Assembly: GCA_949741915.1 (NCBI GenBank)
Contig: CATJOM010000042.1
Span: 1 to 36,034, forward strand
DNA length: 36,034 bases
Reading direction: 5' to 3'
Origin: an uncultured Candidatus Melainabacteria bacterium
GTDB taxonomy: Bacteria; Cyanobacteriota; Vampirovibrionia; Gastranaerophilales; Gastranaerophilaceae
The translations under genes and the position numbers were made by a program. The notes below the pieces were generated by a model that did no database searches, was not told where the DNA came from, and saw nothing but the letters and a program-made list of their open reading frames with translations. Of this stretch, positions 14,500 to 33,037 are shown piece after piece (position 1 is the stretch's first letter; every line of letters starts with the position of its first letter).

Positions 14500-14520
14500 T
14501 ACCTGTGAAACTTTAAATAA

Positions 14521-14548: not shown

Positions 14549-14558
14549 TAAGGAGAAA

Positions 14559-15442: not shown

Positions 15443-15453
15443 TTTATCTCCTT

Positions 15454-15508
15454 GCGTAGTGCTTATTTTTCAAGGCTCATCGCCTTAAAAAATCGCACCG
15501 GCTCACGC
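15454..15508 (+). repeat. Hairpin repeat element, copy 1 (intergenic)
   Basis: The element begins GCGT-A-GTGC and ends GCAC-CGGCTC-ACGC. Between these lie paired arms TTTTT/AAAAA and AAGGC/GCCTT around a TCATC loop. The arms pair along most of the 55 bp with one conserved lopsided internal loop (A against CGGCTC). It lies directly upstream of the candidate small RNA promoter. Confidence 0.75.
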
Positions 15509-15532
15509 ACCTCTTTAAAAGTTTTTTAAATT

Positions 15533-15541
15533 TGTTATAAT
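15533..15541 (+). promoter_or_regulatory. Extended -10 promoter for the candidate small RNA
   Basis: TGTTATAAT (15533-15541) is a TGN-TATAAT extended -10 element. It is 6 bp before the first base of a long stem. No good -35 is visible, which extended -10 promoters do not need. Confidence 0.55.
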
Positions 15542-15547
15542 AAAAGT

Positions 15548-15637
15548 AATAGAGTAATTGATAGTCCAAATAAATCGTATATGGCGGGGTAATTCCTGTT
15601 ATAGGGCATGACGAACCCACAATTACTCTATTTTTTT
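15548..15637 (+). ncRNA. Candidate phage small RNA with 13-bp closing stem and T7 end
   Basis: AATAGAGTAATTG (15548-15560) is the exact complement of CAATTACTCTATT (15620-15632), which runs into seven T. The 59-nt interior can fold further: CGT (15576-15578) with ACG (15611-15613), ATG (15581-15583) with CAT (15607-15609), and TCCT with AGGG around GTTAT. The promoter, stem and terminator fit one transcript of about 90 nt, opposite in strand to the surrounding head genes. It matches no RNA family I recognise. The stem also overlaps the F-like stop codon, so a role as a 3' structure for the F mRNA is the alternative. Confidence 0.5.
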
Positions 15638-16933
15638 GTAATCTTTTCCAGTAGACAAATTATAGTAATTAACTTTTCCAATGGTGGTAACCCTAGAAAT
15701 TGGATACTTGATTTCTTTCCTTTTGCTTTTTTGATTAAAACGCACACATACTTTAATACATTTATTGCTGTTTGGAATTTTATGTATAAAAGCAATTTGT
15801 TTCCATTTTGAATTAGTGTAATCCCAGTAAACTTCATCAGGTTTATTTACAATATTGTAAATTTGCAAGTATTCTTCCTTTGTCAAAGCTTGCGCATCCT
15901 GTTTATGCATTCCGGAATGTCCTATTTGGTCATTTTGAATTACGACAATTGGAGAGCTTGGTGTTTTATCTATTTTTTGAAACAACTCAGGCTGAATCCA
16001 GGTTAAAGTTTTTTCTTGTAGAGTATTTTTGAACCCATTCTTAAAAATATTTTCTACCCAGGTTGTATATGCCTCCTTTTTGTGCGGATTTTCGGCCATT
16101 TTGGCTATAAAATTATACCTAATTTGTTCAGGAAGCCCCTCAACTTTGTTCCAGGCTTGAACATCAATACCCCAGCCTTTAACCCCTAAATTTGTTCCCC
16201 ATCCTGCACCGGGTGTTAAATTTATTATTTTACCCGCACTTTCAAAGGTATATGTTTGTGTAGGCATTTCTTTACCATCCACTATTACTATCGAAGGCTT
16301 AATTTTGCCATCCGTAGATTCTACCTTTATTCCGAGCTGTTCTGCCTGATATTTTGTGAGGTTTATAACATAACACCTGCAACCCCAGTCCAAGGGCGGA
16401 ATAAAAACAAGCCAAAATGTATCATCTGCCCTATACGCCTTATCGTGCATTGCTGCGTGTGCAGGACGTTCTCTGCCGTCTGCCATTGTTTTAAATACCC
16501 AAATTGGCGCAACATCAATTTCTTCAAGCATTTCACGATATCGTCCAACCGCATAGGCTGAATTCATATTGCAGTCATAAATCAGCTTCATACGCCTTGG
16601 TGTGCCAAGTTCCGCCTTTATTATTTCTCCGGTTTTTGGGTCTTTTAGTTCTTTAAATCCGCTCCAGCCTTTTTGACTAAAAAGTTTTTTAGCATCTTTT
16701 TTAAAGGTTGAAAAGCTTTCACCGTTTTCTATTGCGCGTTCTAAAAGCTTTTTAGTGTCAGACAGCAAATCAAGCTCCGTCATTTTAGCTACCGTAAAAG
16801 CAGTGGCGTGCGCATCTTCATAAACTTCATGCCAGTTGAATGAAGTTTTAAGCCCTTTTGATTTAAAGAAATCAACAATTTCTTCAGGCTTCATATAAAA
16901 AGCGGCTTCAAGTTCTTTTTCTTTAATTACCAT
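15623..16933 (-). CDS. Mu F-like head protein with C-terminal nuclease-like domain
   Basis: The 436-aa protein contains the SPP1 gp7/Mu F head-morphogenesis region, with ACRYREMLE-like arginine motifs and the hallmark DGRERPAHAAMHDKAY followed by WLVFIPPLDWGCRCYV. This minor head protein enters the capsid with the DNA in Mu. The last ~120 residues (after ETLTWIQPELFQKI) form a separate domain with IGHSGMHKQDAQALTKEEYL and WKQIAFIHKIPN, reminiscent of the PBECR (barnase/EndoU/colicin E5-like) domains fused to such proteins. ATG 16933 has AAAGG 7 nt upstream and overlaps the portal stop by 11 nt. Confidence 0.85.
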   Translation of the reverse strand: MVIKEKELEAAFYMKPEEIVDFFKSKGLKTSFNWHEVYEDAHATAFTVAKMTELDLLSDTKKLLERAIENGESFSTFKKDAKKLFSQKGWSGFKELKDPKTGEIIKAELGTPRRMKLIYDCNMNSAYAVGRYREMLEEIDVAPIWVFKTMADGRERPAHAAMHDKAYRADDTFWLVFIPPLDWGCRCYVINLTKYQAEQLGIKVESTDGKIKPSIVIVDGKEMPTQTYTFESAGKIINLTPGAGWGTNLGVKGWGIDVQAWNKVEGLPEQIRYNFIAKMAENPHKKEAYTTWVENIFKNGFKNTLQEKTLTWIQPELFQKIDKTPSSPIVVIQNDQIGHSGMHKQDAQALTKEEYLQIYNIVNKPDEVYWDYTNSKWKQIAFIHKIPNSNKCIKVCVRFNQKSKRKEIKYPISRVTTIGKVNYYNLSTGKDYKKIE

Positions 16934-18488
16934 CTTTGAACCTTTCATCCATCCTTTTGCGGTGTTCCTGGATGTCAAGTCTGCCTTTAAGCTCTGAAAT
17001 AAAAATGACTTTAGTAAGCATTTCTTCAAGCTCTTCCGTGTTTAAATCCGGGTAAACTTCGGCAAGTTTTTCAAGAGCTTCTTCAGCATTTTTGTTTTTT
17101 TCAAAAAATTCAATAATAGGATTTAAGGCGGGTGTTATTTGTTTCTCAAGATTTTCGGCACTAAAAAAATCTTTGCTTTCAGGCGCTTTATGCGCTGAGT
17201 TATCTTCATCTTCGGCATCACTGAAATTTATCCCCGACAGGTTTGTTTGCTTCGGTACAATTTTAATATCACCTTTTTGATAACCGTAAGTTTTTAAAAT
17301 ATATTCTTCAGAAAACTCAACACCTAAAGATGAAACCTTAATATCTCTTTCGGCTTTTTGAATGCCAAGGTCTTCATCCTCAACAAAGGCAAATTCAGGC
17401 ACTTCATCATCATTAAAATTGATAGAATTTATAATTTTAATAAAATGGTTGACAGTTTTTTCAACAAGACGCATATCAGCATTTATAATATCATCCCTTA
17501 CACCCATGTGTGCTTTGCCTAAAGCATAAGAACCGTTTTGCCCGGATTCCGTGCTTAAAGTTTGACCTAAAATAGATTTTGCAATATTGGCTTCGCACTT
17601 ATTAACAAGTGAGAGGTGAATATCTGATGAACCTGTTGAACCTGTTGGCACAATTTCAACCCTTGAATCATCAGGAATTATACCTATTGCATTTTGTGCC
17701 ATCTGCATTAGCTTATAAAGAAAATCTTTTTGCTCTGGTTCTGAAAGTTGTCTTTGATAACGCCCGAAAATCCACGGCATACCAAAGTGTTCTGCAAATT
17801 TAACCAAAAATTCCATACCGCCATTTATAAACGCCACATTCCAAAAACAACGGCTTAAAATTGCCTGTCCGTGGGGATTTTGAAATGTAGCTTTATGACG
17901 GGGCAAAAGAAATTTAAGTCCGTTTTCAAAATCAATAAGACGTTTCCCATCCATATTTTTATCTTTGAAAAAGAATTCACCGTCTGAATTAAAATGAAAC
18001 CACTCCTGCGGCTTTGAAGTTAATTTAACAGGAATAATATAGCTGCCATCTTTTTCATAAGAAATTTCAATAGGATTATGCCCATATAAAGGTGCATCTA
18101 AAATATCCTCAATTAATTTGTAGATATCAATAGTTTTGAAAATTTCATCATAAAAATCAAAATGGGCTTTGTTGCAATTATTTTCCCTTAGCTCCCATTT
18201 ATTAGATAAAGTTCCTGCTTTTCTTGAATCAATACAGGTGCCTACCTGATAATGATTGGTCAAAGTTCTTAAAACACTCAGACGTTTTCCGGCATTTTTT
18301 AAAACAACATCCGGGTTTGGCAATATGTCAATTACGCTCATAAACCCTTCAACTGTTTTTGTATTTGCCCAGTCATCTAAAATAGATTTATCTGTCGTAG
18401 GGCCTTTTAGGAAAACTCCTCGTTTTCCTAAATCAGCACCGGCTTGCGCTTTTTTTATAAATTTATTTTTTATTTTATTAAAAAACAT
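16923..18488 (-). CDS. Portal protein, Mu gp29-like (DUF935)
   Basis: The 521-aa protein is of the DUF935/Mu gp29 portal family, which forms the ring at the capsid vertex through which DNA passes. Typical segments are YQVGTCIDSRKAGTLSNKWE, GHNPIEISYEKDGSYIIPV, FLLPRHKATFQNPHGQAILS, and ILGQTLSTESGQNGSYALGK. The length agrees with the family. The ribosome site AAGGA lies 8 nt before the start. It is followed by F and preceded by the large terminase, the order seen in Mu. Confidence 0.9.
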   Translation of the reverse strand: MFFNKIKNKFIKKAQAGADLGKRGVFLKGPTTDKSILDDWANTKTVEGFMSVIDILPNPDVVLKNAGKRLSVLRTLTNHYQVGTCIDSRKAGTLSNKWELRENNCNKAHFDFYDEIFKTIDIYKLIEDILDAPLYGHNPIEISYEKDGSYIIPVKLTSKPQEWFHFNSDGEFFFKDKNMDGKRLIDFENGLKFLLPRHKATFQNPHGQAILSRCFWNVAFINGGMEFLVKFAEHFGMPWIFGRYQRQLSEPEQKDFLYKLMQMAQNAIGIIPDDSRVEIVPTGSTGSSDIHLSLVNKCEANIAKSILGQTLSTESGQNGSYALGKAHMGVRDDIINADMRLVEKTVNHFIKIINSINFNDDEVPEFAFVEDEDLGIQKAERDIKVSSLGVEFSEEYILKTYGYQKGDIKIVPKQTNLSGINFSDAEDEDNSAHKAPESKDFFSAENLEKQITPALNPIIEFFEKNKNAEEALEKLAEVYPDLNTEELEEMLTKVIFISELKGRLDIQEHRKRMDERFKDGN

Positions 18489-18679
18489 TGCTTAAATCCT
18501 TTATCTTGTATTTTGCTTCACTCAAACAAGTCATTCACTTCGTTTCACTGGCGTTCATTTTTGTTTTCGCTCCCGCGGGTCATCGCTTTGCTTCGCCCTT
18601 CGCAAAATCCGCTTTAATTTCTTTTTAACGCTTTTTAAAAGCCCCATTAAATATCTTTTATATACAAATTATTGATAAA
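18489..18679. other. GC-rich spacer between terminase and portal genes
   Basis: This 191-bp spacer interrupts an otherwise tight operon. Its centre is unusually GC-rich with TTCG/TTCGC runs, and it shares the exact 11-mer TTCACTGGCGT (18544-18554) with the outer hairpin element at 27055-27065. It does not fold like the clear copies, so it may be a decayed relative. Confidence 0.35.
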
Positions 18680-20095
18680 TTAATTAAACCCTCTTAAAAG
18701 GCCATCTAGCCCGTTTAAATTTAATTCACCGTTTAAACCCTTGTAAATATTAGGTTTGGCGGACAATATAATCGGTTTTTGATACGGCGCATTTGTGCCC
18801 GCATAAACAGCAAGTGCAAAGCTCCAAAATCTATCAGCGTGCCCGTCTGTTTCAGACCTTGACACATCAAACCTTATAACGTTTGATACTTCGGTTGCAA
18901 TCCTTTTAACGGAATGCAGGTCATTTTTAATTAATTCATCATCCGGGATTCTGATATTCTTATCTTGAAAAGCATATAAAAGCTTGTATGCCATCTCCTC
19001 TTTTGCTTTTGATGTAAAGGTTACAGGTTCAACCAGCCTGGAGCCGAATTCATCCTTTAATTCTTCAGCCATTTGATTGCCAATCCCTGTATTATCTATA
19101 GCGAGCCTCCGGCATTTTGGATTTGCTAAAATATAACTTATAAGGCTTTTTTGGTCAGAATATTTGACATTTTTTAATTCATAAATCTTTCTTAGATAAA
19201 AAACGCTTCCCAATTTTTCAAAAATTGAAATTATGGAGAGGTCGCGTTTTCTTGCCACATCATAACCGACATAAAAATCATTTGTAATGCTTGATAAATC
19301 TTCAAATAATGTATCTTCAATACAGGTATTTATAAGTTCATAAGGTAAAAATGCGCTCCCTTCATCCACTGCAACACAGCAATATTCTTGCTGCCAAGTT
19401 ACCTCATCACCGCAGCCTTGCCTTTCTTCTTCAATCCAGGCTTGCCTTTCTTCTTCGGTTAATTTTCTGTCTAAAATCTTATCTGCAAGCCCTTCGGCTA
19501 CGGCTTGAAAGATGTCAACCTTATGCAAAGACCATTTCAGCTGACCTTTTCTAATTTTTTCTATAAATTTATAAAACAAATTGTTTGTGCCATTTAATGA
19601 TGAAATTATTCTTAAGGGATAACCCCACGTTATTACAGGCTTTGCCGCTTTCCATAATTCAACCGGGTTTTCGTGAAATGCAAATTCATCAAGAACAACT
19701 TTGCCGCCTTTAGAGCGGAACCCTTTGGGGTTGGACGTTAAAGCGTTAATTCTCGCACCATTTTTAAATTGCATTGATAAGGCTTTTATATCTTTATCTT
19801 CATCAATAATAATTTCACCAAGCGGTTCAAAACTTGCATTAACAGCTTTTGCCCAACCTTCGCAATACAAAATATATTCCACTGCAGCCGAAGCGTTAGC
19901 CGATGAAAACCAAGTATCAACAGGTTTCCCGCGAACCAAAAGTGTATTTGCATCTTTTACATCTTCAAATGCTTGTACCCAAGTAAAACCCGTACGGCGG
20001 GATTTTTCAGATAGTTTAAAACGGGCGGTATCAAGCAACCACCTTTTTTGATAGGGTAAAAATAAATTAAAGCTTGATGCTAATTCAATTCCCAT
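18680..20095 (-). CDS. Terminase large subunit, Mu gp28-like
   Basis: The large terminase cuts and pumps DNA into the prohead. The 471-aa protein has a Walker A-like motif SRRTGFTW at about 32-39, a Walker B VVLDE at 133-137, a coupling motif (ISSLNGTNN), and a RNase H-like nuclease domain with acidic residues D279 (YVGYDVARKRD), D334 (LAIDNTGIG) and a late DGHADRFW aspartate. This layout matches gp28-type terminases of transposable phages. It directly follows the small subunit gene with no gap. Confidence 0.9.
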   Translation of the reverse strand: MGIELASSFNLFLPYQKRWLLDTARFKLSEKSRRTGFTWVQAFEDVKDANTLLVRGKPVDTWFSSANASAAVEYILYCEGWAKAVNASFEPLGEIIIDEDKDIKALSMQFKNGARINALTSNPKGFRSKGGKVVLDEFAFHENPVELWKAAKPVITWGYPLRIISSLNGTNNLFYKFIEKIRKGQLKWSLHKVDIFQAVAEGLADKILDRKLTEEERQAWIEEERQGCGDEVTWQQEYCCVAVDEGSAFLPYELINTCIEDTLFEDLSSITNDFYVGYDVARKRDLSIISIFEKLGSVFYLRKIYELKNVKYSDQKSLISYILANPKCRRLAIDNTGIGNQMAEELKDEFGSRLVEPVTFTSKAKEEMAYKLLYAFQDKNIRIPDDELIKNDLHSVKRIATEVSNVIRFDVSRSETDGHADRFWSFALAVYAGTNAPYQKPIILSAKPNIYKGLNGELNLNGLDGLLRGFN

Positions 20096-20542
20096 CTATC
20101 CCCCAATTACAGCATCAAAGAATTTCTTAACCATTTCTTGGGTATCAGTTTTTTGCGTTTCGGGTTGTTGTTCCCCGGTTTGTGAGGTCAATTCTTCAAT
20201 TCTTTCGGCTGCTTCCTGTTTTTCATATTGTTTTAATTTGGCTATTTTATCGGTCATCGCCATAATAAAATAGCAGGTCTTTTGGTCAGGAATTATTCCT
20301 TCATTCCTAAAGTCATCAAGTGCTTTTTTGGAAATCGCCCCTAAAAGTTCATAAAGCGTTTGGTTTGTGGAATACTGACTTTTTAAATAGCGCTTGCGTT
20401 TTTCTTCCCAGCCGCCTGCTTTTTTCCAATTGTGAATGGTCTTTTCAGACACATCAAGCCTTTTTGCAATCTGACTTACCGTCATTTGCATTTCAACAAA
20501 ATATTGCGCTGCTATAGGTTCATATTCGGGCTTTTTTGTCAT
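20096..20542 (-). CDS. Terminase small subunit-like protein
   Basis: The 148-aa protein begins with a helix-turn-helix (MTVSQIAKRLDVSEKTIHNWKKAGGWEEKR; SQIAKRLDVSEKTIHNWKK is the core) and continues as a helical oligomerisation region. It has the size and shape of small terminase subunits of the DUF1804/gp26-27 type that recognise packaging DNA. Its stop abuts the large subunit start. The C-terminal EMVKKFFDAVIGG may be the large-subunit contact. Confidence 0.75.
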   Translation of the reverse strand: MTKKPEYEPIAAQYFVEMQMTVSQIAKRLDVSEKTIHNWKKAGGWEEKRKRYLKSQYSTNQTLYELLGAISKKALDDFRNEGIIPDQKTCYFIMAMTDKIAKLKQYEKQEAAERIEELTSQTGEQQPETQKTDTQEMVKKFFDAVIGG

Positions 20543-20544
20543 AG

Positions 20545-20793
20545 CTATTCTCCAAGCGCTTCTTTAACCTGTTTAAGCTTCTTTTTACATTCAAGAGCTT
20601 CATTATAGATTTCTAAAATCTCACATCCAAGCTGTCTGATTTCTGCCGCTTTTATATCTTCAATTTGTTCAAAATACGGAATAACCCGGCTTGAGATATC
20701 ATTTAAGCGCATAATAAGCTTAAGTTCCAAGTCCTTTAGCTTCTTTTCCTGTTCTGTTTTCGTGATTTTTAATTGCATAATCGCCGGATTCAT
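20545..20793 (-). CDS. Small coiled-coil protein upstream of terminase
   Basis: The protein is 82 aa and almost entirely charged helix (ITKTEQEKKLKDLELKLIMR to the C-terminus), as expected of a coiled coil. It overlaps the previous gene by 4 nt and precedes the terminase by 2 bp. Its place corresponds to small gp25/gp26-type proteins of Mu, whose functions are unclear. No catalytic features are present. Confidence 0.65.
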   Translation of the reverse strand: MNPAIMQLKITKTEQEKKLKDLELKLIMRLNDISSRVIPYFEQIEDIKAAEIRQLGCEILEIYNEALECKKKLKQVKEALGE

Positions 20794-21089
20794 TCAATAA
20801 TACTCCCCTGCTTTTCATCGTGACTCATTTTTTTAACCATTGGACACCACAAATTATTTGAAACTTTGGTATCAATTTTTTGTAAATATGTAAGTTGTAA
20901 AATATTTTGTTCGATAACTTTATCCAAAAGTTTGAACATATTGTCATTATTACCTTTAAGCATTTCGGCATTTGCAGTGCTAATGCTTTTGAACATTTCG
21001 GCGCTTGATTTATGGTAAATGTAAAAAGTAAAAAACATAAAAGCGCCTATTCCTGCAAATTTTAAGATTTCAATAAACCATTCAGGCAT
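20790..21089 (-). CDS. Small membrane protein, DUF2730-like or holin-like
   Basis: The 99-aa protein has an N-terminal transmembrane helix (ILKFAGIGAFMFFTFYIYHK) and then a helical, polar domain. It is first in the leftward late arm. Mu-like phages have a DUF2730-type protein with one helix and a coiled coil at this place, and a BhlA-type holin has a similar shape. No endolysin is beside it. The two cannot be told apart here. Confidence 0.6.
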   Translation of the reverse strand: MPEWFIEILKFAGIGAFMFFTFYIYHKSSAEMFKSISTANAEMLKGNNDNMFKLLDKVIEQNILQLTYLQKIDTKVSNNLWCPMVKKMSHDEKQGSIIE

Positions 21090-21141
21090 AAGTTTTCCTT
21101 TCTAGTGTTACAAGCAACATACCAAATCGCATAATTAATTA

Positions 21142-21162
21142 CATATAAGTAATTTATTTAGT
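21142..21162 (-). promoter_or_regulatory. Late promoter motif, leftward copy
   Basis: On the minus strand ACTAAATAAATTA is joined directly to CTTATATG. The same arrangement faces the other way 15-22 bp further right and recurs at 31615. GGTATGTT follows about 18 bp downstream. It lies 53 bp before the first gene of the leftward late arm. There is no -35, as in activator-dependent promoters. Confidence 0.6.
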
Positions 21163-21163
21163 A

Positions 21164-21184
21164 ACTTTCTAAGCTTCTTATATG
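21164..21184 (+). promoter_or_regulatory. Late promoter motif, rightward copy
   Basis: ACTTTCTAAGCTT is joined directly to CTTATATG, and GGTATGTT follows about 18 bp downstream, just as in the leftward copy. It precedes the protease/scaffold gene by about 94 bp. The left half of the motif is a near-dyad, as expected for a Mor/C-type site. Confidence 0.6.
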
Positions 21185-21277
21185 AAAGAGATTTTCAAAA
21201 AGGGTATGTTAGAACCATAAAACAATTTGACACAGTCTTACCAAGTATTTATGTAACGAAAGGCAAAGTATGAACTA

Positions 21278-22258
21278 ATGGCAAAGTGGTGTGAAATTTT
21301 TAGAACAGGTCAACATAAGGATTCAAAAGGCAGACCTTTTAATTGTACACTTTTAGACCTTGAGCTTATGAAAACAAAGTATGAAAACGTGCACAACCAG
21401 GTTCCTATTTGCTGCGGACACCCGCAAACAAATTCACCAGCCTACGGATGGTTTGACCAACTAAAAATTGCACCAAACAACAAGGCAGGATACAGTCTAT
21501 ACTCCACATTTAAAAATGTGCAGCCGGAATTTATTGAGGCAGATAAAAAGGGGCTGTTTAAAACCCGTTCATTAAGCTTTACCAAGGATGGTATTATAAG
21601 GCATTTAGCTTTTTTGGGCGGGGGGACTCCTGCAATTAAAGGGTTAGAACAATTTTGCTTCTCTGATTTTGATGAAGAGAATGATTCAATTTTTAATTTT
21701 GAAGATTTTGAAGATAACGAAAATAACGAAGAAAAGGATTTTTCTATGGGTAATGAAGACAAACTAAAAGAAGAGCTTCAGACAAAAAATGACAGAATTG
21801 CCGAGCTTGAAGCTGAGCTACAGACTAAAAATACAGAGCTTGAAACAAAAACGGCAGAATTAAAAGCTAAAGAAGATGAAGCGGACAGAAAGGATTTTGC
21901 AGACTGGACGGACACAATGATAGCAGAAGGTCGCATTCTTCCTGCACAAAGAAGCGATGTAATAAACATCTTGACCGCAGTCAACGACTCAGGTTTTGAG
22001 TTCGATGATGGCGGAAATGGCGAAAAAATAGATGCCAAAGGAAGTTTTAAAAGGCTTGTAGGTTCAATTAAACAGCTTGATTTTAAAGATACAAACAGGC
22101 GTGATTTTAAAGACAACGACGATGATGCCATCAATTTCAGCGATGCTGAAGATGTTGCAACTAACATTAAAAAAATACAAAAAGAATACTTTGAAAAAAC
22201 AGGTATAGAGCTCAATTCAGCTCAAGCTTTGGCGGAATTAAAGAAAGGGAATAAATAG
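21278..22258 (+). CDS. Phage protease/scaffold fusion, Mu gpI-like
   Basis: The 326-aa protein fits Mu gpI, a prohead protease with a scaffold tail. The N-terminal half has PICCGHPQTNSPAYGWFDQL and LFKTRSLSFTKDG, consistent with the protease histidine and serine segments of this family. The second half (about 160-210) is a long coiled coil (EELQTKNDRIAELEAELQTK) typical of scaffold. ATG 21278 has only a distant AAAGG. It is the first gene of the rightward late arm and contains a nested scaffold start at 21746. Confidence 0.85.
   Translation: MAKWCEIFRTGQHKDSKGRPFNCTLLDLELMKTKYENVHNQVPICCGHPQTNSPAYGWFDQLKIAPNNKAGYSLYSTFKNVQPEFIEADKKGLFKTRSLSFTKDGIIRHLAFLGGGTPAIKGLEQFCFSDFDEENDSIFNFEDFEDNENNEEKDFSMGNEDKLKEELQTKNDRIAELEAELQTKNTELETKTAELKAKEDEADRKDFADWTDTMIAEGRILPAQRSDVINILTAVNDSGFEFDDGGNGEKIDAKGSFKRLVGSIKQLDFKDTNRRDFKDNDDDAINFSDAEDVATNIKKIQKEYFEKTGIELNSAQALAELKKGNK
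21746..22258 (+). CDS. Nested scaffold protein (Mu Z-like) from an internal start
   Basis: In the same frame as the protease, ATG 21746 (residue 157, start of MGNEDKLKEEL) has its own AAGGA ribosome site 7 nt upstream. It would give a 170-aa scaffold without protease. Mu makes a separate scaffold (Z) from inside gene I in the same way, so this is likely to be real. Confidence 0.6.
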   Translation: MGNEDKLKEELQTKNDRIAELEAELQTKNTELETKTAELKAKEDEADRKDFADWTDTMIAEGRILPAQRSDVINILTAVNDSGFEFDDGGNGEKIDAKGSFKRLVGSIKQLDFKDTNRRDFKDNDDDAINFSDAEDVATNIKKIQKEYFEKTGIELNSAQALAELKKGNK

Positions 22259-22708
22259 ATGACGATAAAAAGCTATCAAGCTTCCAGTGCAATACCAGCA
22301 TATAGCTTTGTTAAATTTAACGATGAAAAATCTATTAAAGCCGCAAGTGTTGCAACGGATAACATCATAGGGGTTACAGACAGCACTAACACTACTGAAA
22401 ATGACATAGCAGATGTGTTTATGCCGGGTGAGATTGCTTTGATTCTGGCGGGTGGTACCTTTAGTGCAGGCGACGCTTTAACATCTGATGAAAACGGTTA
22501 TGCCATTAAAGCAGATGCCGGAGATAATATCGGCGCAGTTGCACTACAAGATGCTGTTAGCGGTGATATTATTCAGGCAATTGTTACCATAAACCGCACA
22601 TTTGAAACATCAAACACAAATGAAGGCGGTGATACAACACCCACAACAACCCCTAACGGAACAAGCCCCAATAGTGAAACATCAATTCCAAGCGGAATAG
22701 ATAATTAA
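22259..22708 (+). CDS. Capsid decoration-like protein (DUF2190-type)
   Basis: The 149-aa protein has a beta-rich body: PAYSFVKFNDEKSIKAASV, then IIGVTDS, then AGDALTSDENGYAIKA. This follows the DUF2190/gpD-like decoration fold found between scaffold and major capsid genes. The last 35 residues are threonine, serine and proline rich and disordered. It starts right after the scaffold stop. Confidence 0.7.
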   Translation: MTIKSYQASSAIPAYSFVKFNDEKSIKAASVATDNIIGVTDSTNTTENDIADVFMPGEIALILAGGTFSAGDALTSDENGYAIKADAGDNIGAVALQDAVSGDIIQAIVTINRTFETSNTNEGGDTTPTTTPNGTSPNSETSIPSGIDN

Positions 22709-22724
22709 ATAGGAGAATAAAATA

Positions 22725-23669: not shown

Positions 23670-24131
23670 GTGTCTTATTGTACCTTGGAAAATCTCACAT
23701 CCTTAATTCCAATGCAAGAGCTTATCAATTTAACAAACGATGAGACTCTTGCCCGGGATGTTAAGGAAATCAATACAAAACAGGCTGAAAACGCTATTTC
23801 TTACGCAGATGAAATCATAAATTCATATCTTAGAAATAAATACAAACTGCCCTTAAAGTTTGTACCGCCGATTTTAACACAAATAGCAGTTGACCTTACG
23901 GCATTCAGACTCTATTCAAGACGACCCCGCAAGCTGCCTGAGCATATAAAAGACAGCTATGATGTTGCAATAAATCTTTTAAAAAACATCCAAAAAGAAA
24001 CAATGATACTGGATTTGCCGCACGAACACCCGGACAAAGAAGTATCAAAACCCGCACCAATGATTTTAACCAACAAGGGCGCCAATTCAAAAATATTTTC
24101 AGACGACGTTATGAAAGGCTTTAGACTTTGA
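23670..24131 (+). CDS. Head-tail connector, gp36-like (DUF1320)
   Basis: The 153-aa protein fits the DUF1320/Mu gp36 family: YCTLENLTSLIPMQELINLT, AISYADEIINSYLRNKYKLP, LTQIAVDLTAFRLYSRRP. Family members act as adaptors between portal and tail. It starts with GTG directly after the capsid stop. Confidence 0.8.
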   Translation: MSYCTLENLTSLIPMQELINLTNDETLARDVKEINTKQAENAISYADEIINSYLRNKYKLPLKFVPPILTQIAVDLTAFRLYSRRPRKLPEHIKDSYDVAINLLKNIQKETMILDLPHEHPDKEVSKPAPMILTNKGANSKIFSDDVMKGFRL

Positions 24132-24589: not shown

Positions 24590-24590
24590 A

Positions 24591-26078: not shown

Positions 26079-26108
26079 ATAGTCAGGGCAAAAGGAAGGA
26101 TTTAAACA

Positions 26109-26615
26109 ATGGTAACAGTACTTACAAAATCAAATATATATCTTGGAAAATCTTTATTTGGTATCGCAAACAAAGTAACAGCGCCCGATATTGAAATGGA
26201 AACCGCTACAATAACTCATGGTTTTGGTAGTTATGATGTAAACACAGCTTTTAAGTCAATGACCAGCAACATTAATATTCAGGGCTTTGATAAGGATGTT
26301 TTTAATGCAATCTCAAACCCCTTTGGATGGCTTAATTTTACAATTTATGGTGCGCTTGAAGAATATTCAAATGAAAGCCTTGTAGGGTCAGAACAGGCAA
26401 AACTTATCATAAGGGCTTCAAGCAAAAAATTCAGTCTTTTAGGCGAACTAGAACAACAAAAAAATCTTGATTACCCTATAGATTTTAATGTTTCAGCTGC
26501 AAAACTCTATATTAATAACAAAGAAAAATATGTGATTGATAACATTAATCAAATATACAGGATAAACGGGGTTGACTTGCTTGCAAAGGTAAGAAAAGAC
26601 CTAGCATTACAGTAA
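26109..26615 (+). CDS. Tail tube protein
   Basis: The 168-aa protein follows the sheath gene, has an AAGGA ribosome site and is of the size of the P2 FII/Mu tail-tube family. ATITHGFGSYDVNTAFKSMT and FDKDVFNAISNPFGWLNFTI are tube-like segments. It would stack as hexamers inside the sheath. Confidence 0.8.
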   Translation: MVTVLTKSNIYLGKSLFGIANKVTAPDIEMETATITHGFGSYDVNTAFKSMTSNINIQGFDKDVFNAISNPFGWLNFTIYGALEEYSNESLVGSEQAKLIIRASSKKFSLLGELEQQKNLDYPIDFNVSAAKLYINNKEKYVIDNINQIYRINGVDLLAKVRKDLALQ

Positions 26616-26630
26616 TACGGAGAATAAAAA

Positions 26631-26894
26631 ATGACAAAAGCACAAACTGAAAACTTGGTAAAATTAACACTTTCAAACGGTGTTAAAGTAGAATTTGACC
26701 CAACAAAGGGCAACGGTCATTGTCTGATGAAAGCAAGACAAGCTTCAGGCGGTATGGCAACCGTAATTTATATACTAGCTGAAATTGCCACATTTGACGG
26801 TGAAAAAATGCCGGCACCTGAAATTTTAAATTTTAATGCACATGACATTATAACCCTTGAAGAAGCTTGGGGAAACGCCAAACCGGGACAATAA
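26631..26894 (+). CDS. Tail assembly chaperone, short form (gpG-like)
   Basis: The 87-aa protein lies between tail tube and tape measure genes, the fixed place of the tail chaperone. It has an N-terminal strand region (KLTLSNGVKVEFDPTKGNG) and a C-terminal EEAWGNAKPGQ. Its 3' end contains a -1 frameshift signal. It has a GGAG ribosome site. Overproduced short form and rarer long form coat the tape measure protein before tail growth. Confidence 0.8.
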   Translation: MTKAQTENLVKLTLSNGVKVEFDPTKGNGHCLMKARQASGGMATVIYILAEIATFDGEKMPAPEILNFNAHDIITLEEAWGNAKPGQ

Positions 26895-27052
26895 TCCCGG
26901 ATGTTGAAATGATGGCTTTTATAGCCCACTTCCTTCATTTCTCCAAAAAAGAAGTCTATGAAATGACATTTGATGAAATCATTTTTTGGTTCAATGAAGC
27001 TCATTCTTTATGGAAAAAACTTAACCTGGAACCTGAAAAACATAAGCCGTAG
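26631..27052 (+). CDS. Tail assembly chaperone, -1 frameshift fusion (gpGT-like)
   Basis: Slipping back one base at 26870-26876 joins the first 82 residues of the short form to 58 more (from RQTGTIIPDVEMMAFI onward), giving about 140 aa. The added T-like domain (EMTFDEIIFWFNEAHSLWKK) is short and helical, as in Mu gp41' and P2 E'. The TAG stop at 27050-27052 lies inside a hairpin repeat element. Confidence 0.75.
26870..26900 (+). promoter_or_regulatory. -1 ribosomal frameshift signal
   Basis: The heptamer G-GGA-AAC (26870-26876) is in the correct frame to slip back. Six bases later CCGGGA (26883-26888) pairs with TCCCGG (26895-26900) around CAATAA, which holds the zero-frame stop. The lambda G/GT signal uses the near-identical GGGAAAG. 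Confidence 0.85.
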
Positions 27053-27127
27053 TGTTCACTGGCGTAGTGCTTTGCGGCTTGCTCATCGCAACCCGCACGC
27101 ACCGCCTCACGGAACACCGGTTCGCGC
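27048..27127 (+). repeat. Hairpin repeat element, copies 3 and 4 (one nested in the other)
   Basis: The inner copy (27063-27111) pairs as GTGC/GCAC, GCGG/CCGC and TTGC/GCAA around TCATC, with flanks CGT-A and CGCCTC-ACG. The outer copy is split by it: left arm CGT-A-GTGTTC (27048-27057) and right arm GAACAC-CGGTTC-GCGC (27112-27127). It supplies the stop of the frameshifted chaperone. Confidence 0.7.
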
Positions 27128-27157
27128 AATTTAATCTCATAAATTTTCCTTGATATT

Positions 27158-27181
27158 AGGGGCTTTTGCCCCTTTATTTTT
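27158..27181 (+). terminator. Intrinsic terminator before the tape measure gene
   Basis: GGGGC (27159-27163) and GCCCC (27168-27172) form a stem with a TTTT loop, followed by TTTATTTTT. The stem is short but GC-only. It may only partly terminate, since tape measure expression must continue from the same promoter or a hidden one. Confidence 0.65.
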
Positions 27182-27195
27182 AGCAAAGGATTAAT

Positions 27196-29202
27196 ATGCC
27201 CGCTGATATGAAAGTAAATCTTTATCTAAAAGCATTTGACACAATGAGTAGTGTCGTAAAATCAGCGTGCGCACAATCTGATGATGCCTTTGAAAAAACC
27301 AATAAACGTCTTGAAGAAACAGCAAACAAATTTGATAAAGCAGGACAGAAAGCAGCAGTTTTTGGTGGGGCTCTTGTTGCAGCATCAGGATTAAATGCTA
27401 AAATTGCGGGCGATTTTGAAGCAGGAATGAACAATGTTTCAACCCTGATTGATACTGACACTGAAAGCCTAAAGGCAATGGGGGATGAGGTTTTAAGGAT
27501 TGGTAAAAATTCTCCAAAAGCCATATCAGATTTAACCGACGGGCTTTATTCCATACGTTCTGCCGGCATATCCGCAGATGAGCAGTTTAGGGTTTTAGCG
27601 GGTTCAGAGAAACTTTCTGTTGCGGGGCTTTCAACCACAGCGGAAGCCGTTGACATTGCAACATCTGCTATAAATGCCTTTAATCTTAAAGGCAAAGAAG
27701 CAGACGGTATTTACGATATGTTCTTTAAGGTTGTAAAGTATGGGAAAACTAATATTTCAGAATTTGCCCAAGGTTTTGGTTCGGTTGCAGGTGTTGTCGC
27801 CGCTGCCGGCATTCAATTAGACGAATATTCAGCCTCTGTTGCTGCAATGACAACATCCGGCCTAAAAGCAAATATTGCCCACACACAAATGAAGGCTGCC
27901 ATTGCAGGTTTGTCCCGTGGCTCAAAAGAACAGATGGAAATATTTACAAAGCTTGGTGCTAAAAATTTTCCTGATTTAATTCAAAAATCTGGTGGGGTTG
28001 TAAACGCCTTTGATAAAATCTACAAAGGTGTTAATGGCAACCAATCAAAATTGATTCAGCTGGTCGGTTCCGTTGAGGGATATAATGCTATTCTTTCTTT
28101 AACAGGGGCAAATAATGCAACCTATCTTCAGACCCTAAATGATATGAGAAATGGCGGAGATTCACTATCAGAAGCCTACAGAAAACAAACTGACGGGCTT
28201 AATAATCAAATGGCGATTATGAAAAATAATGCCCAGGCTTTAAGTATTAAATTTGGTACAGCACTTTTGCCTGTCATAAAGGCCGCAGGCAGTACATTCC
28301 AAACAGTATCTAGCATTATTGACAAAATGCCACCAGGGCTTACAAGTTTTGTTTCAATTGCGGCAGCTGGAATTGGTGTTGTAAGTCTTTTTGGCGGCAC
28401 AGCATTAATGGCTGTTGGTGGCATTATAAGAAATGTAATTTTACTTAGAAAGGTTATGCGCGGCTTTTCTATTGTAACCTGGGCAAACCCTGCGCTATTG
28501 CCCATTATGGGTGTTGTTGCAGGAATAGCCTTGCTTGCTGCGGGCACTATTTATTGTTATAAAAAATTTGAAGGCTTTAGAAATATTTGCCAGGGAACGT
28601 GGGCAGTTGTTAAAGCCGGCGGAGCTTGGCTTGCTGTCTTATGGCAGGGCTTTTTAACCGGCGCCGGTGCCGTTTGGAACTTTATAAAACCTGCTGTTTT
28701 GTTTGCTGCTAAAATTTTAGCCTGGACAACCCCTATAGGCCTTGCAGTTAAGGCCATTCAAACTTTATGGGGATGGATTGGTAAATTAATTAATAAAGCA
28801 GGCGGATTAAGAGGCATTGGCGGAAAACTCAAAGAATGGGGTGATGAACAAAGCAAAAAAGCGGAAGAGATTAATAAAAACATCAAAAAAGACAGAGCAT
28901 CACAAGTGGACGGAAGCCACGCTAACGGCCTTGATTATGTGCCGTTTGACGGATACAAGGCGGAACTTCACAAAGGTGAATCTGTCTTAACGGCGCCTGA
29001 AGCTAACCGCTGGAGAAGAGGCAATATAAACAATAATTCAAGCGAAAGCATCAAAATCGATTTTCACCCCACAATCCATTGGGGAAGCAATGTTTCAAAC
29101 TCATCAAAACAAGAGTTCCTGGCACTTCTATATAAATATAAGGATGAGCTTGTAAAAATTATACTTGATATCTTAAGACGCAGAGAGGCAAGGGTTTACT
29201 AA
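27196..29202 (+). CDS. Tail tape measure protein (TP901 family)
   Basis: The 668-aa protein sets tail length. The N-terminal 50 residues are a coiled coil, then comes the TP901-type core (AGLSTTAEAVDIATSAINAF, ISEFAQGFGSVAGVVAAAGI, ALSIKFGTALLPVIK), a hydrophobic region of about 380-530 with several membrane-type segments, and a charged C-terminus with a conserved DYVPFDGYKAELHKGE (tape measure end). The length predicts a tail of roughly 100 nm by the usual 1.5 angstrom per residue rule. The start ATG 27196 has AAAGGA upstream. Confidence 0.9.
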   Translation: MPADMKVNLYLKAFDTMSSVVKSACAQSDDAFEKTNKRLEETANKFDKAGQKAAVFGGALVAASGLNAKIAGDFEAGMNNVSTLIDTDTESLKAMGDEVLRIGKNSPKAISDLTDGLYSIRSAGISADEQFRVLAGSEKLSVAGLSTTAEAVDIATSAINAFNLKGKEADGIYDMFFKVVKYGKTNISEFAQGFGSVAGVVAAAGIQLDEYSASVAAMTTSGLKANIAHTQMKAAIAGLSRGSKEQMEIFTKLGAKNFPDLIQKSGGVVNAFDKIYKGVNGNQSKLIQLVGSVEGYNAILSLTGANNATYLQTLNDMRNGGDSLSEAYRKQTDGLNNQMAIMKNNAQALSIKFGTALLPVIKAAGSTFQTVSSIIDKMPPGLTSFVSIAAAGIGVVSLFGGTALMAVGGIIRNVILLRKVMRGFSIVTWANPALLPIMGVVAGIALLAAGTIYCYKKFEGFRNICQGTWAVVKAGGAWLAVLWQGFLTGAGAVWNFIKPAVLFAAKILAWTTPIGLAVKAIQTLWGWIGKLINKAGGLRGIGGKLKEWGDEQSKKAEEINKNIKKDRASQVDGSHANGLDYVPFDGYKAELHKGESVLTAPEANRWRRGNINNNSSESIKIDFHPTIHWGSNVSNSSKQEFLALLYKYKDELVKIILDILRRREARVY

Positions 29203-29942
29203 TGTTTGAAAAATGGAATATGCTTAAAATCCTTAATATGATTGAAGCTCCGTCAACTAAAAAAGAATATACCTATAATCAAATGCCCTGTATAAATTCA
29301 AAGCCAGCTCTTCAAAGGGGTAATGAAAATTTGCTCGAATATGCTGTTTTTCTGCCTTTGCATTTTTCTTTTTGTAACCCTAAAAAAGTAATTGAAACAA
29401 TTAAAAAATGCGCCTTAAATGGGGATAAAATCGACTGGGTATACCAAAAACAATATATGGGGCAGTTTGTAATAAATTCTGTTGAGAAAACTTTAACCAA
29501 AGCTCTTAAAGGCACGATTATTTATGCAGAGGTTAATTTTAATCTGCTTGAAGTGCCGCCCGACCCTGATTTTAAAGCCGAAGGCAAAGGCTCTATGATT
29601 GATGAAACAAAGGCGGTGAGTGAAAAACACCCCAAAATTAAAGAACTTGCCGCAAAAGTAAGGGTTTCGGCTGTGGAATCGTTTAAAGAAAATGTTAATA
29701 CTGCTCTTTTAAATACATCTTTAACAGATATGGGCAAAGAGCTTGTAAGAACAGTTTCAAACTCTGTTGCGACAGATTTAACCGGAGTTAATGTCGGGGA
29801 TTTATATAATACGGTGGGCGCTTATGCAGATGCTGTTAAAAATAATGATAACTTAAGCCCTGCTGAAGCTTTAAATGTAGCTCAAAGCATCAGAGCAATC
29901 CCTGAATTAATGCTTGATGGCTCATTGCGAGGAGGGTTCTAA
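29202..29942 (+). CDS. Tail protein, P2 gpU-like with C-terminal extension
   Basis: The first half of this 246-aa protein resembles P2 gpU: KCALNGDKIDWVYQKQYMGQ, then FVINSVEKTL and a beta stretch ending in FNLLEV. It binds the end of the tail tube in P2. The last ~100 residues are helical and have no known match. The ATG overlaps the tape measure stop by 1 nt. Confidence 0.65.
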   Translation: MFEKWNMLKILNMIEAPSTKKEYTYNQMPCINSKPALQRGNENLLEYAVFLPLHFSFCNPKKVIETIKKCALNGDKIDWVYQKQYMGQFVINSVEKTLTKALKGTIIYAEVNFNLLEVPPDPDFKAEGKGSMIDETKAVSEKHPKIKELAAKVRVSAVESFKENVNTALLNTSLTDMGKELVRTVSNSVATDLTGVNVGDLYNTVGAYADAVKNNDNLSPAEALNVAQSIRAIPELMLDGSLRGGF

Positions 29943-29946
29943 AATC

Positions 29947-30159
29947 ATGTCTTATATTTTATACACAACCGGGCAAAATGAAAGATGGGACACAATAGCT
30001 TATAAATTCGGCTCTACTTATAATATTTTACCCATAATTGAGGCAAACCCGCACGTTAAAGTAAGCCCTGTTTTACCTGAAGGTATAACTTTAAAAATCC
30101 CTGTTCCTGAAATGAAAGCAAATAATGATAAAACGAGGCTTCCTGTATGGAAACAGTAA
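29947..30159 (+). CDS. Tail protein X-like, LysM-type
   Basis: This 70-aa protein contains a LysM-like core (ERWDTIAYKFGSTYNILPII, then ANPHVKVSPVLPEGITLKIP). Family proteins help to join baseplate and tail tube. I chose ATG 29947 because the earlier in-frame ATG 29914 lies in the previous gene. The GAGGAGGG ribosome site lies about 10 nt before it. It overlaps the next start by 13 nt. Confidence 0.8.
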   Translation: MSYILYTTGQNERWDTIAYKFGSTYNILPIIEANPHVKVSPVLPEGITLKIPVPEMKANNDKTRLPVWKQ

Positions 30160-31163
30160 ATTCAACAAATAAAACACGAAAGCCTGTTGTAACGCTTCTT
30201 TGTAACGGAAAAGATGCAAGTAAGGATTTTTCAAAGTATTTAAGGGAATTAACCTTTAATGAATTTGAAGATGAACAATCAGATGAACTTACGCTCACTT
30301 TAAACAACAATGACGGATATTTTTCAGACCTTTGGTATCCAAATAAAGGTGACAAATTAAGTGTTACAATTCAATACGGTGAAGATGTTTTTGAACCCGG
30401 AGCTTTTACAATTGATGAAAATAGTTTTAACTGGGGTTTATCGGGCGACACTATTGAAATCAAAGCACTTGCAACCTCAACAAACTTTTCTGTTCGAACG
30501 CAAAAAATAAAAAATTGGAGCGGATATACCTTAAACAAAATTGCTGAAATAATAGGAAAACAGTACGGGTTTAAGGTTTTGGGCAACACTGGAAATGTAA
30601 AAATAGGTGTAATTGTTCAAAAAAATGAATCGGATATTGCTTTTTTGAAACGTATATCAAAGCTTTACGGGTATATTTTTAATATTAAAGATGGTTATTT
30701 AACCTTTACTTTGCTTTCAGATTTAGAATCAGGAGAGGCTTTATTTACCCTTTCAAAATCTTCGGATATTGAAAGTCTTAGCCTGAATGATACTGTAACA
30801 AAGATTTACGGCAAAGCAAAAGTGCAATACCTGGATTTAAAATCTAAAACAGTTAAAACATACACAGCAGTTGGAAATACTGAAATAACAGACACTTTAA
30901 CCGTTTACAAAAGGTGTTCTTCATTATCGGAAGCAAAAATTGTGGCACAATCTGCCCTTAAAAATTCTTCAAGAGAGGTTACCGGCAGAATTCAACCGTC
31001 AAGACCCAATAAACTTTTTATGGCGGGCGTAAATTTTGATTTAACGGGAATTGGCAAACATGAGGGCAAATACCACATTAAATCACATACTTTAAAAATT
31101 GATGAATCAGCAAAATTAAGTCAGGAAGGAGAGATTTCAAAATGCTTGAATTCGGCACAGTAA
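30147..31163 (+). CDS. Baseplate hub protein, P2 gpD-like
   Basis: The 338-aa protein fits the late control D/gp27-like hub family. N-terminal CNGKDASKDFSKYLRELTFN, the middle VRTQKIKNWSGYTLNKIAEI, the LKRISKLYGYIFNIKDGYLT core, and RIQPSRPNKLFMAGVNFDLT are typical. The hub sits at the end of the tube and holds the spike. It overlaps the X-like and V-like genes on either side. Confidence 0.85.
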   Translation: METVNSTNKTRKPVVTLLCNGKDASKDFSKYLRELTFNEFEDEQSDELTLTLNNNDGYFSDLWYPNKGDKLSVTIQYGEDVFEPGAFTIDENSFNWGLSGDTIEIKALATSTNFSVRTQKIKNWSGYTLNKIAEIIGKQYGFKVLGNTGNVKIGVIVQKNESDIAFLKRISKLYGYIFNIKDGYLTFTLLSDLESGEALFTLSKSSDIESLSLNDTVTKIYGKAKVQYLDLKSKTVKTYTAVGNTEITDTLTVYKRCSSLSEAKIVAQSALKNSSREVTGRIQPSRPNKLFMAGVNFDLTGIGKHEGKYHIKSHTLKIDESAKLSQEGEISKCLNSAQ

Positions 31164-31609
31164 AAGAGATAAAAGGCTTGGAAGCAAAGGTTCATTTTGA
31201 AGCCTGGGGATTAGAAGACTTGTGGCTTAAGGTGCCGCAAAAATTTACCGTAACCAAAAAATCAAAAATGATGCCTGAAATGGGACAGCTTGTTGCTGTT
31301 GTCTTAACGGATGATTTATGCGAAGGGGTCATTTTGGGCGGCATTTACAATGATGAAGATTTGCCGCCTGAAGATTTGGGGGATGATTTCATTCAGTTTG
31401 CTGACGGCTCTTCTTTTTCTCACACAGAGGGGTCTAAAAGCTTTAACTTAGAAGTTGAAAACCTTTATGTAAGTAAAAACATTATAGCAGGCGGCGAAGT
31501 GCAGGATTCAAGAGGCACGCTTGATTCAGTGCGGCAGCATTCAAATAGCCACGCTCATACAAATGGAAACAACGGCTCTAATACAGGAGCTCCAACAGCC
31601 ACAGTTTAA
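31142..31609 (+). CDS. Baseplate spike protein, gpV-like
   Basis: The 155-aa protein has the gpV layout: an OB-fold N-terminus (GTVKEIKGLEAKVHFEAWGL, MMPEMGQLVAVVL), then a stalk and the tail end SNSHAHTNGNNGSNTGAPTA, which contains the H-x-H metal motif that binds iron at the tip of P2-like spikes. It overlaps the D-like gene by 22 nt. Confidence 0.85.
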   Translation: MLEFGTVKEIKGLEAKVHFEAWGLEDLWLKVPQKFTVTKKSKMMPEMGQLVAVVLTDDLCEGVILGGIYNDEDLPPEDLGDDFIQFADGSSFSHTEGSKSFNLEVENLYVSKNIIAGGEVQDSRGTLDSVRQHSNSHAHTNGNNGSNTGAPTATV

Positions 31610-31614
31610 TAGAA

Positions 31615-31635
31615 ACTTAATAAGTTCCTTATATG
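31615..31635 (+). promoter_or_regulatory. Late promoter motif, baseplate copy
   Basis: ACTTAATAAGTTC is joined to CTTATATG, and the match to the copy at 21164 runs on into GAAA and ATTTT. ACTTA-A-TAAGT is a perfect dyad. It lies 33 bp before the W-like gene in the only clear gap of the baseplate cluster. Confidence 0.6.
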
Positions 31636-31667
31636 AAATAAAATTTTGAAAATTAAATAATAGGAAT

Positions 31668-32006
31668 ATGGAAAGTTATCAACACAAAAGAAATTCGCTC
31701 ACTGAAACCGTTTCGGGCAAAGAAGATGTTAAACAATGTGTTAAAACCATTGCATCAACTCAAAAGGGTTCTGTCCCTTTCATGCCCGAATTTGGATGTG
31801 ATTTATTTCCAGCTGTTGGTGAAAAATCTCCCCTTGCAATTGATTATCTAATAGGAGTTTACACACGGGAAATTTCGCTTCAAGAGCCAAGATGCGAAAT
31901 TTCCGAGGTTGTTGGTGATTTCACAGAAGATGGACAAATAAAAATGACAATTTATTTTACCTGCAAAGAAGATGAAAACAGTGATTTTGTGGAGGTTTAC
32001 GTATAA
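31668..32006 (+). CDS. Baseplate wedge protein, gpW/gp25-like
   Basis: The 112-aa protein has the gp25/gpW pattern: SGKEDVKQCVKTIASTQKGS, FMPEFGCDLF, and the C-terminal EVVGDFTEDGQIKMTIYF. Such proteins contact the sheath at the baseplate. The start follows a late motif, with a weak GGAAT ribosome site. Confidence 0.85.
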   Translation: MESYQHKRNSLTETVSGKEDVKQCVKTIASTQKGSVPFMPEFGCDLFPAVGEKSPLAIDYLIGVYTREISLQEPRCEISEVVGDFTEDGQIKMTIYFTCKEDENSDFVEVYV

Positions 32007-33037
32007 TGATGTCAGAACGTAGTGTTTCAGGGCAAGGCTCAACACCTTCCCCTTTCACACCGGCTCACGCAGCCCTTGAATTTATAAAAATTGACCCAAA
32101 AGCAGATGAGGCACATTTAATTGAAAAGTTTGAAAAAGACACCGATACAAAGGTGCAGATTGCCCATGATACAAGGATTTTAATTGAGTTAATGGTTTAT
32201 TATGCAAACCTAATTAAAGCCCAGGTTAATGATGCTTGTAAACTTAACCTTGTAGAACACTCAAGGGCACCAATTCTAGACTTTTTAGGCAATCAAAAAA
32301 ACTGTCCGCGCCTTGAAGACGAGGAAGATAAAGACTATATTCAAAGGATTTTATTATCCCCTGAAGGGTTTTCCGTTGCGGGTCCTGAGCTTGCATATAT
32401 TTATTTCACAAAATCTGTTGATTCTTTAATTAAAGATGTGCAGTGCGAAGTGCCTGAAGATGATATAAAAATTAAAATCGGTGAAACTGAAACCGTTATG
32501 ACAACGAATGAAATAACAACGGCTCTCTTTAATATCGTTTGCAATTATAAAGAGGGTGAGGTTGAAATCACTTTAAATCAGGCGCTTGAAGCGGGTTCAA
32601 AGATTAAAGTCACCGTGCCGCACCCATATAGAACATTTTTGCATATTTTAACGCAAGATGGCACAGAAGTTGAAGGGCTTTTGGATAAAGTTTCAGATGC
32701 CTTAAAACCCGTTAAGCCGCTTTGTGATTACCCATTGCCACAGTTTGCAAAGATTGAAGAATTTGCAATAAACGGCAAAGTTTATCTTAGAAAAAATGCG
32801 GATGAAGAAACTGTTAAAAAGAATGTTAATGAGCTTTTAAATAAGTATTTAAGCGGTGTTAATCTGTTTTTAAAAAAATCCGTTGTTAAAAATCATATAG
32901 TGTCTTACATAAATTCTATTGACGGCGTTTTTGATTTTAAAGTTACAAAGCCGACTTCAAACATGCTGGCTAAAATTGATACGGCATATAAGGGTACAAT
33001 CGGCAATATAACTTATGAAAGGGTGACAGATGAGTAA
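32006..33037 (+). CDS. Baseplate protein J-like
   Basis: The 343-aa protein fits the baseplate J family: EFIKIDPKADEAHLIEKFEK, LVEHSRAPILDFLGNQKNCP, and SPEGFSVAGPELAYIYFTKS. J forms part of the wedge. The first ~22 residues (up to FTPAHAA) come from a hairpin repeat element; related proteins usually begin near LEFIKID. GGAGG lies upstream of the ATG. Confidence 0.85.
   Translation: MMSERSVSGQGSTPSPFTPAHAALEFIKIDPKADEAHLIEKFEKDTDTKVQIAHDTRILIELMVYYANLIKAQVNDACKLNLVEHSRAPILDFLGNQKNCPRLEDEEDKDYIQRILLSPEGFSVAGPELAYIYFTKSVDSLIKDVQCEVPEDDIKIKIGETETVMTTNEITTALFNIVCNYKEGEVEITLNQALEAGSKIKVTVPHPYRTFLHILTQDGTEVEGLLDKVSDALKPVKPLCDYPLPQFAKIEEFAINGKVYLRKNADEETVKKNVNELLNKYLSGVNLFLKKSVVKNHIVSYINSIDGVFDFKVTKPTSNMLAKIDTAYKGTIGNITYERVTDE
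32018..32070 (+). repeat. Hairpin repeat element, copy 5 (start of gpJ-like gene)
   Basis: Flanks CGT-A and CGGCTC-ACG enclose paired arms GTGT/ACAC, AGGG/CCCT and AAGG/CCTT around a CTCAACA loop, with the same C-C mismatch position as the other copies. Confidence 0.75.

Follow-up and report, generated by a model that had tools for sequence, protein, structure and literature searches.

A probably mobile, REP-like palindromic repeat of the Gastranaerophilales in a Mu-like prophage

What are the short hairpins that recur within the Mu-like prophage of contig CATJOM010000042.1, and how did they come to lie there? The stretch analysed here (the window, 36,034 nt from an uncultured Candidatus Melainabacteria bacterium) carries a unit of ~50-57 nt with near-constant ends, reading GCGYRAGCC-GGTG ... 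CACT-ACG on the element strand, and a stem whose sequence varies freely yet remains base-paired. The unit is not phage-specific: it belongs to the bacterial lineage and is probably a dispersed, mobile palindrome of the host that resembles repetitive extragenic palindromic (REP) sequences. The initial annotation of this DNA had described four copies with common flanks and a single orientation, placed in phage late genes. Those four are borne out by the sequence and exceed chance, and the shared orientation extends to every copy in the prophage. The number rises to six with the addition of a diverged copy in the portal gene and an outer copy that surrounds the third. The copies are as follows.

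15455..15508, minus strand (the GCGTRAGCC strand): E1, 54 nt, identified from the sequence; 72.0 bits to the covariance model, fold z -4.6 on the minus strand
18396..18449, minus strand: E6, a diverged 54-nt copy within the portal gene, reading frame kept; 30.3 bits to the covariance model
24720..24772, minus strand: E2, in the tail sheath gene (24591-26078, plus strand), in frame but antisense
27048..27127, minus strand: E5, an outer copy split by E3 into the halves CGTAGTGTTCACTGG and GAACACCGGTTCGCGC
27063..27112, minus strand: E3, nested in the loop of E5; 61.6 bits to the covariance model, supported by its fold
32018..32070, minus strand: E4, at the N-terminus of the baseplate J-like gene (32006-33037, plus strand), in frame but antisense; 72.2 bits

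Among the four copies of the initial annotation, placement in late genes holds for E2 and E4, which lie in frame inside such genes; it fails for E1 and for the copy at the stop codon of a small open reading frame (ORF). E1 is intergenic between minus-strand genes, immediately 5' of the AAGGAG ribosome-binding site of a minus-strand ORF (15113-15442). The CGTAG of E5 provides the stop codon (TAG, 27050-27052) of a 47-aa ORF (26909-27052) upstream of the tape-measure gene, and the two halves of E5 pair through GTGTTC and GAACAC. The in-frame copies are translated as AQAGADLGKRGVFLKGPT in the portal protein (stop-free variant GCGCAAGCC), RSAYGSSTSEAPKTPAHA in the tail sheath and RSVSGQGSTPSPFTPAHA in the baseplate J-like protein. 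Insert peptides in the phage proteins include RSAYGSSTSEAPK, and the portal and sheath inserts each amount to 18 residues. The 3' flank CACCGGCTCACG, with up to two mismatches, occurs seven times in the window against 0.47 expected. The pattern CGTAGTG...CACCGNCTCACG matches five times across the 2.45 Mb genome, every time within the window and on the plus strand; the reversed control matches nowhere in it.

The initial annotation had also proposed that the inner arms pair and covary, and this is seen in the fold of each window copy and in 39 distinct copies outside model building, which were compared with a covariance model made from four window copies. Among these 39, paired cells make up 91.6% against 67.7% in shuffles, double-changed cells number 138 against 42.3, and 14 of 17 pairs contain double changes. 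The covariation score is 0.540 against 0.169 for shuffled sets (0/500), with slid controls at or below 0.084; the test rows were aligned with the covariance model, which favours the model structure. RNAalifold yields 13 pairs, of which 12 show double changes, and in 44 copies chosen by their ends alone the stems still surpass dinucleotide shuffles (mean z -3.5). Pairing thus goes beyond that of shuffled sequence and is kept by compensatory change. The outer CGT/ACG pairing fared less well: both trinucleotides are present as flanks, and their pairing is weakly supported, with variation that is mostly one-sided.

Read as GCGTRAGCC...CACTACG, single window copies have folding energies of -21 to -24 kcal/mol (z -3.0 to -4.6), better than those of the opposite strand, and an alternative small GC-GNRA-GC hairpin is possible at the 5' end. 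The constant parts are GCGYRAGCC, in most copies a GNRA-type loop with GC closure, together with GGTG/CACT and ACG; pattern-based selection inflates the constancy of GCGYRAGCC, and one comparison is less affected by this bias. Most copies span 49-68 nt with up to ~20 stem pairs, and a few minimal ones of 25-27 nt are without the inner stem.

Is the element a property of this phage or of its hosts? Further copies in relatives, which the initial annotation had named as a sign of mobility, are present, by the covariance model, in 27 of the 146 genomes examined from the order. All but one belong to the window's family (26 of 117 genomes), and copy counts per genome are minimum counts. A scan of ~85,000 named species with GCGTRAGCCGGTGN{14,44}CACTACGA returned 35 stretches. 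Thirty are Candidatus Gastranaerophilales/Melainabacteria, a record titled Cyanobacteria, or metagenome-assembled genomes with the same repeats; the other five (Burkholderia, Mucilaginibacter, Solibacter, Acidimicrobiia and Vreelandella) are at about chance level by estimate. Within the window's own genome the strict and relaxed patterns match this prophage only. With the core pattern two more come to light, one inside a recombinase gene (contig C17) and one on contig C67, which also has an integrase-like ORF, and the covariance model adds weaker copies on C58, C55, C126 and C60. Six contigs of another genome (G027; C7, C11, C14, C18, C19 and C21) end near copies of the element. This pattern suggests that assemblies break at near-identical repeats and that the copy counts are too low.

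Six copies in one orientation within a single 28 kb prophage could instead be phage-specific sites for packaging, recombination, phage regulation or binding, held by selection in the window phage. A second, distant Mu-like prophage of the window's own genome (G000, contig C60; sheath 39% identical) carries two diverged copies (~40518-40688; L168 518-688) that follow its MuF-like gene, a place matching that of E1 and favourable to such a role. However, Mu-like prophages of three other genera (two in G026, and those of G004 and G033; 115 kb) contain no copy, the positions in the portal, sheath and baseplate J genes are not common to relatives, and most copies in other genomes lie outside phage genes. 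This host distribution strongly contradicts a phage-specific function, which we regard as highly improbable. The strict pattern was also run against IMG/VR, where it returned 11 stretches. Only those of sample 3300006217 represent the window phage; the remainder are single matches on unrelated, higher-GC contigs, no more than chance by estimate.

Did the element insert at these positions, or did it arise in place? The copy in the C17 recombinase gene consists of 57 extra nucleotides, in frame. The corresponding empty site is found in an IMG/VR sequence (L211) whose flanks are 95.4% and 91.6% identical and which is exactly 57 nt shorter; the gene is likewise without the element in L212 and in the more distant L213. 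At the protein level, the portal minus its 18 inserted residues aligns nearly gap-free to the G026 portal (MFFNKIKNKFIKKTDKSILDDWANTKTVEG versus MFNFFKTKFSIKR-DKSIFEEYASAKDVVG), the sheath insert faces a 16-column gap in all four homologues, and baseplate J without its insert is colinear with the homologues of G026, G004 and G033. An AlphaFold model of the sheath, built from five sequences, was of low confidence (mean pLDDT 47) and was not used for placing the insert. Host genes provide comparable cases: a vitamin B12-dependent ribonucleotide reductase (G060) has an in-frame copy within a linker for which relatives have a shorter sequence, and another copy lies in frame in a class II aldolase (G001). 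Sense copies in host genes read GCG CAA GCC, where intergenic copies mostly have GCG TAA/TGA GCC, which would be a stop, a difference that insertion and subsequent selection on the reading frame would be expected to produce. Empty sites thus exist at both the DNA level (recombinase) and the protein level (portal, sheath and baseplate J), as the initial annotation had anticipated for a mobile element. Their comparison demonstrates, at the level of sequence, that the element has inserted, including inside genes; by the same kind of evidence it is mobile in evolutionary time and dispersed, with fixed ends and a free stem.

The host copies also show what the repeat is built from. In head-to-tail arrays the element is often interleaved with a second palindrome, GCGACGT-[variable paired stem]-CAGGAGC (L129, L139, L114, L203 and others), and the repeat is a mosaic of the two. 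The two ends of this composite, GCGTRAGCC on one side and CAGGAGC on the other, do not form an inverted repeat. A variant of the first module with the foot GCCRGAGTG...CAACTGTYGATA is present as well. In two genomes a composite with a minimal hairpin forms the leader of a MuA gene, before the start codon (L071 and L084), and CACAGGAGC of the composite serves as the ribosome-binding site; we read these leaders as co-option. The second module was considered as a general mobile ribosome-binding site and rejected, with 3 of 59 modules able to act in this way.

How might such a repeat move? We propose that the resident Mu-like phage received at least six insertions of a non-autonomous, REP-like palindrome native to the Gastranaerophilales lineage. 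On the REP model an enzyme acting in trans would spread the palindrome in the form of a folded, single-stranded hairpin. Insertions that broke essential frames would have been lost, and stems could drift if recognition needs pairing and not sequence. The copies in the phage would be passengers, possibly transferred by it from host to host. The single-stranded, in-trans mechanism is a tentative part of this proposal, to which we give slightly less than an even chance. We hold as possible, though on balance unlikely, a broader form in which fixed-end, free-stem hairpins spread through the order without an HUH transposase of the REP-associated tyrosine transposase (RAYT) type, by an undescribed single-strand mechanism, with Mu-like phages as both a landing ground (in frame, in structural genes) and a vehicle between hosts. 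In the prophage the orientation of the element is constant although the genes run both ways, which fits placement by replication direction; six copies are few for this comparison.

Several observations weigh against a mobile host repeat. Y1_Tnp (PF01797), the family that moves classical REPs, is found in one of 15 genomes, versus 5 of 14 control genomes, and a RAYT/IS200 transposase was rejected as mobiliser on its absence from the other 14. A reverse transcriptase was rejected likewise, as just 6 of 11 genomes have one. The neighbours of the copies are MuA at a few loci and otherwise ordinary housekeeping or phage genes, with no further mobility gene repeated among them, and no target-site duplication is visible at the single DNA-level empty site. 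Finally, 22 of 28 host copies have their GCGTRAGCC strand in line with the upstream gene, and the stop codon of that gene often directly precedes them.

This last point raises the question of whether the element is mainly a structured RNA (a terminator, an mRNA-stability hairpin or a leader hairpin) under selection in transcripts, with dispersal secondary. The downstream gene lies on the same strand in 20 of 29 host cases, and at two loci (L114 and L123) the element's own TAA terminates the gene. Of 44 copies, 42 fold better as RNA on the GCGTRAGCC strand, partly through one constant G-U pair, and the composites that lead the two MuA genes include their ribosome-binding sites. An RNA-level role of some host copies is a serious rival. 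As an account of the whole family it is hard to reconcile with copies inside coding sequence and with the nested copy, and four of the six prophage copies are antisense to their own or neighbouring genes. A ribosome-binding role of the second module is limited to the 3 of 59 noted above, and no Rfam 15 family matched at the elements (nine loci, E up to 1). We consider a primarily RNA-level role decidedly doubtful, and a dispersed host palindrome the better explanation.

The setting of the copies is a prophage that enters the window about a fifth of the way along; a tRNA scan gave no match. The left 7.9 kb is bacterial chromosome with FtsH, HPPK and CdhD-like genes, followed by these features.

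7950..36034, no strand assigned: Mu-like prophage with the six element copies, recognized by gene content; its right end lies beyond the window
10114-11043: MuB-type ATPase gene of the prophage
11051-12985: MuA-type transposase gene of the prophage
15623-17029: MuF-like gene of the prophage
16923-18488: portal gene of the prophage
18680-20095: terminase gene of the prophage, which also has genes for Gam, a head maturation protease, a major head protein and a tail fibre
24591-26078, plus strand: tail sheath gene of the prophage
27196-29202: tape measure gene of the prophage
32006-33037, plus strand: baseplate J-like gene of the prophage

The left end at 7950 is exact because IMG/VR contigs of sample 3300006217 contain the window phage (99.9-100% identical) bordered on the left by other sequence. 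A second assembly (L013, 1-1812) has the Mu-like phage at another chromosomal site, the common sequence starting TGTGAAGAG. One IMG/VR copy (L017; 3300006217_000456) differs in the portal gene by a 69-bp in-frame deletion (window 18323-18391) that starts ~4 nt past E6; this position led us to reject the difference as a breakpoint at the element. The window form of the portal matches its homologues, and the IMG/VR copy has therefore lost the 69-bp stretch. In the chromosomal part, an HNH endonuclease gene (7026-7859) reaches to within ~90 bp of the left boundary of the prophage, and two genes with CdhD-type (CO dehydrogenase/acetyl-CoA synthase) domains (4984-7013) adjoin FtsH in a genome placed near Gastranaerophilales.

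It is an unsettled question how repeats of the REP and Rickettsia palindromic element (RPE) types spread, especially when they enter genes and when they have no dedicated transposase. This family, from gut relatives of the Cyanobacteria, offers a filled and empty gene pair, in-frame copies in phage structural and host metabolic genes, and a nested copy, and the Mu-like phage is a candidate vehicle for it. The fixed ends and free stem show which bases a mobiliser must read, and the mechanism is therefore testable. Open-access literature, searched without subscription papers or preprints, contained nothing relevant on such repeats in Melainabacteria or Gastranaerophilales, and the family is apparently undescribed.

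The initial annotation's statement that no element of this layout has been described was too strong: GTAG-tagged REPs are similar and also occur inside genes (PMC3733652). The survey of GTAG- and CGTC-tagged REPs by Di Nocera et al. 2013 (PMC3733652) counts Cyanobacteria among the carriers and files RPE-4 and RPE-6 as CGTC REPs. GTAG REPs, including bacterial interspersed mosaic elements, share with our element a short imperfect palindrome on a GTAG foot, compensatory variation in the stem, dimers or arrays, cyanobacterial carriers, and locations near gene 3' ends with stop codons supplied and some copies intragenic. The same placement is found here, mainly intergenic near gene 3' ends and partly intragenic. 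The GTAG tag is described as unpaired, whereas the last G of the GTAG within CGTAGTG is paired in most of our copies; recognition of Escherichia coli-type REPs requires GTAG together with stem irregularities (PMC8266576). GTAG REPs have stems of 5-13 bp, loops of 2-20 and lengths of 20-40 bp, in contrast to the 49-68 nt of most copies here, and form head-head or tail-tail dimers in place of head-to-tail arrays with a second palindrome. RAYT genes occur in most carrier species of GTAG REPs, as against PF01797 in one of 15 genomes here. The long, sequence-free inner stem and the constant 3' tail CCGGCTYACGC set our element further apart, as does its presence inside phage structural genes; a text search of the survey (PMC3733652) found no mention of phage insertion.

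Could this nevertheless be a classical RAYT-mobilised GTAG REP family whose transposase was lost from, or is missing in, the assemblies? The GTAG at the hairpin foot and the combination of stop-supplying gene-end copies with intragenic ones would agree with it, and loss of RAYT in some strains has been described (PMC3733652). The long free stem, the constant tail, the scarcity of Y1_Tnp set against the control genomes, and the head-to-tail mosaic arrays, when GTAG REPs have few or no head-tail dimers (PMC3733652), make this improbable. Membership of the GTAG REP super-family is not shown, because RAYT, dimer type and size range were each tested and each differs.

Palindromes derived from IS200/IS605, which transpose as single-stranded DNA, resemble the element in their imperfect hairpin, strand asymmetry and single orientation per replicon; they differ in that 14 of the 15 genomes here are without the Y1 transposase and the element has no left and right ends around a cargo. 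For miniature inverted-repeat elements of DDE transposons, the relevant features are the target duplication, of which none is visible at the one DNA-level empty site, and the composite ends, which are not inverted repeats.

The closest parallel in effect is provided by the RPEs (Ogata, Claverie), in-frame palindromes in unrelated protein genes that are tolerated as short extra peptides, like the copies in the portal, sheath, baseplate J, recombinase, ribonucleotide reductase and aldolase genes described above. A mobiliser is not known for either. RPEs belong to an unrelated bacterial group, and no Rickettsia record is among the 35 stretches from the ~85,000-species scan; the strongest cluster of our element is in a phage, and the likeness drawn here is one of layout. 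The initial annotation's idea of a mobile structured element nearest to the RPEs is thus supported by the copies in relatives, the compensatory pairing and the empty sites, and the element is best filed as a REP-like/RPE-like repeat family of Gastranaerophilales that invaded a Mu-like phage.

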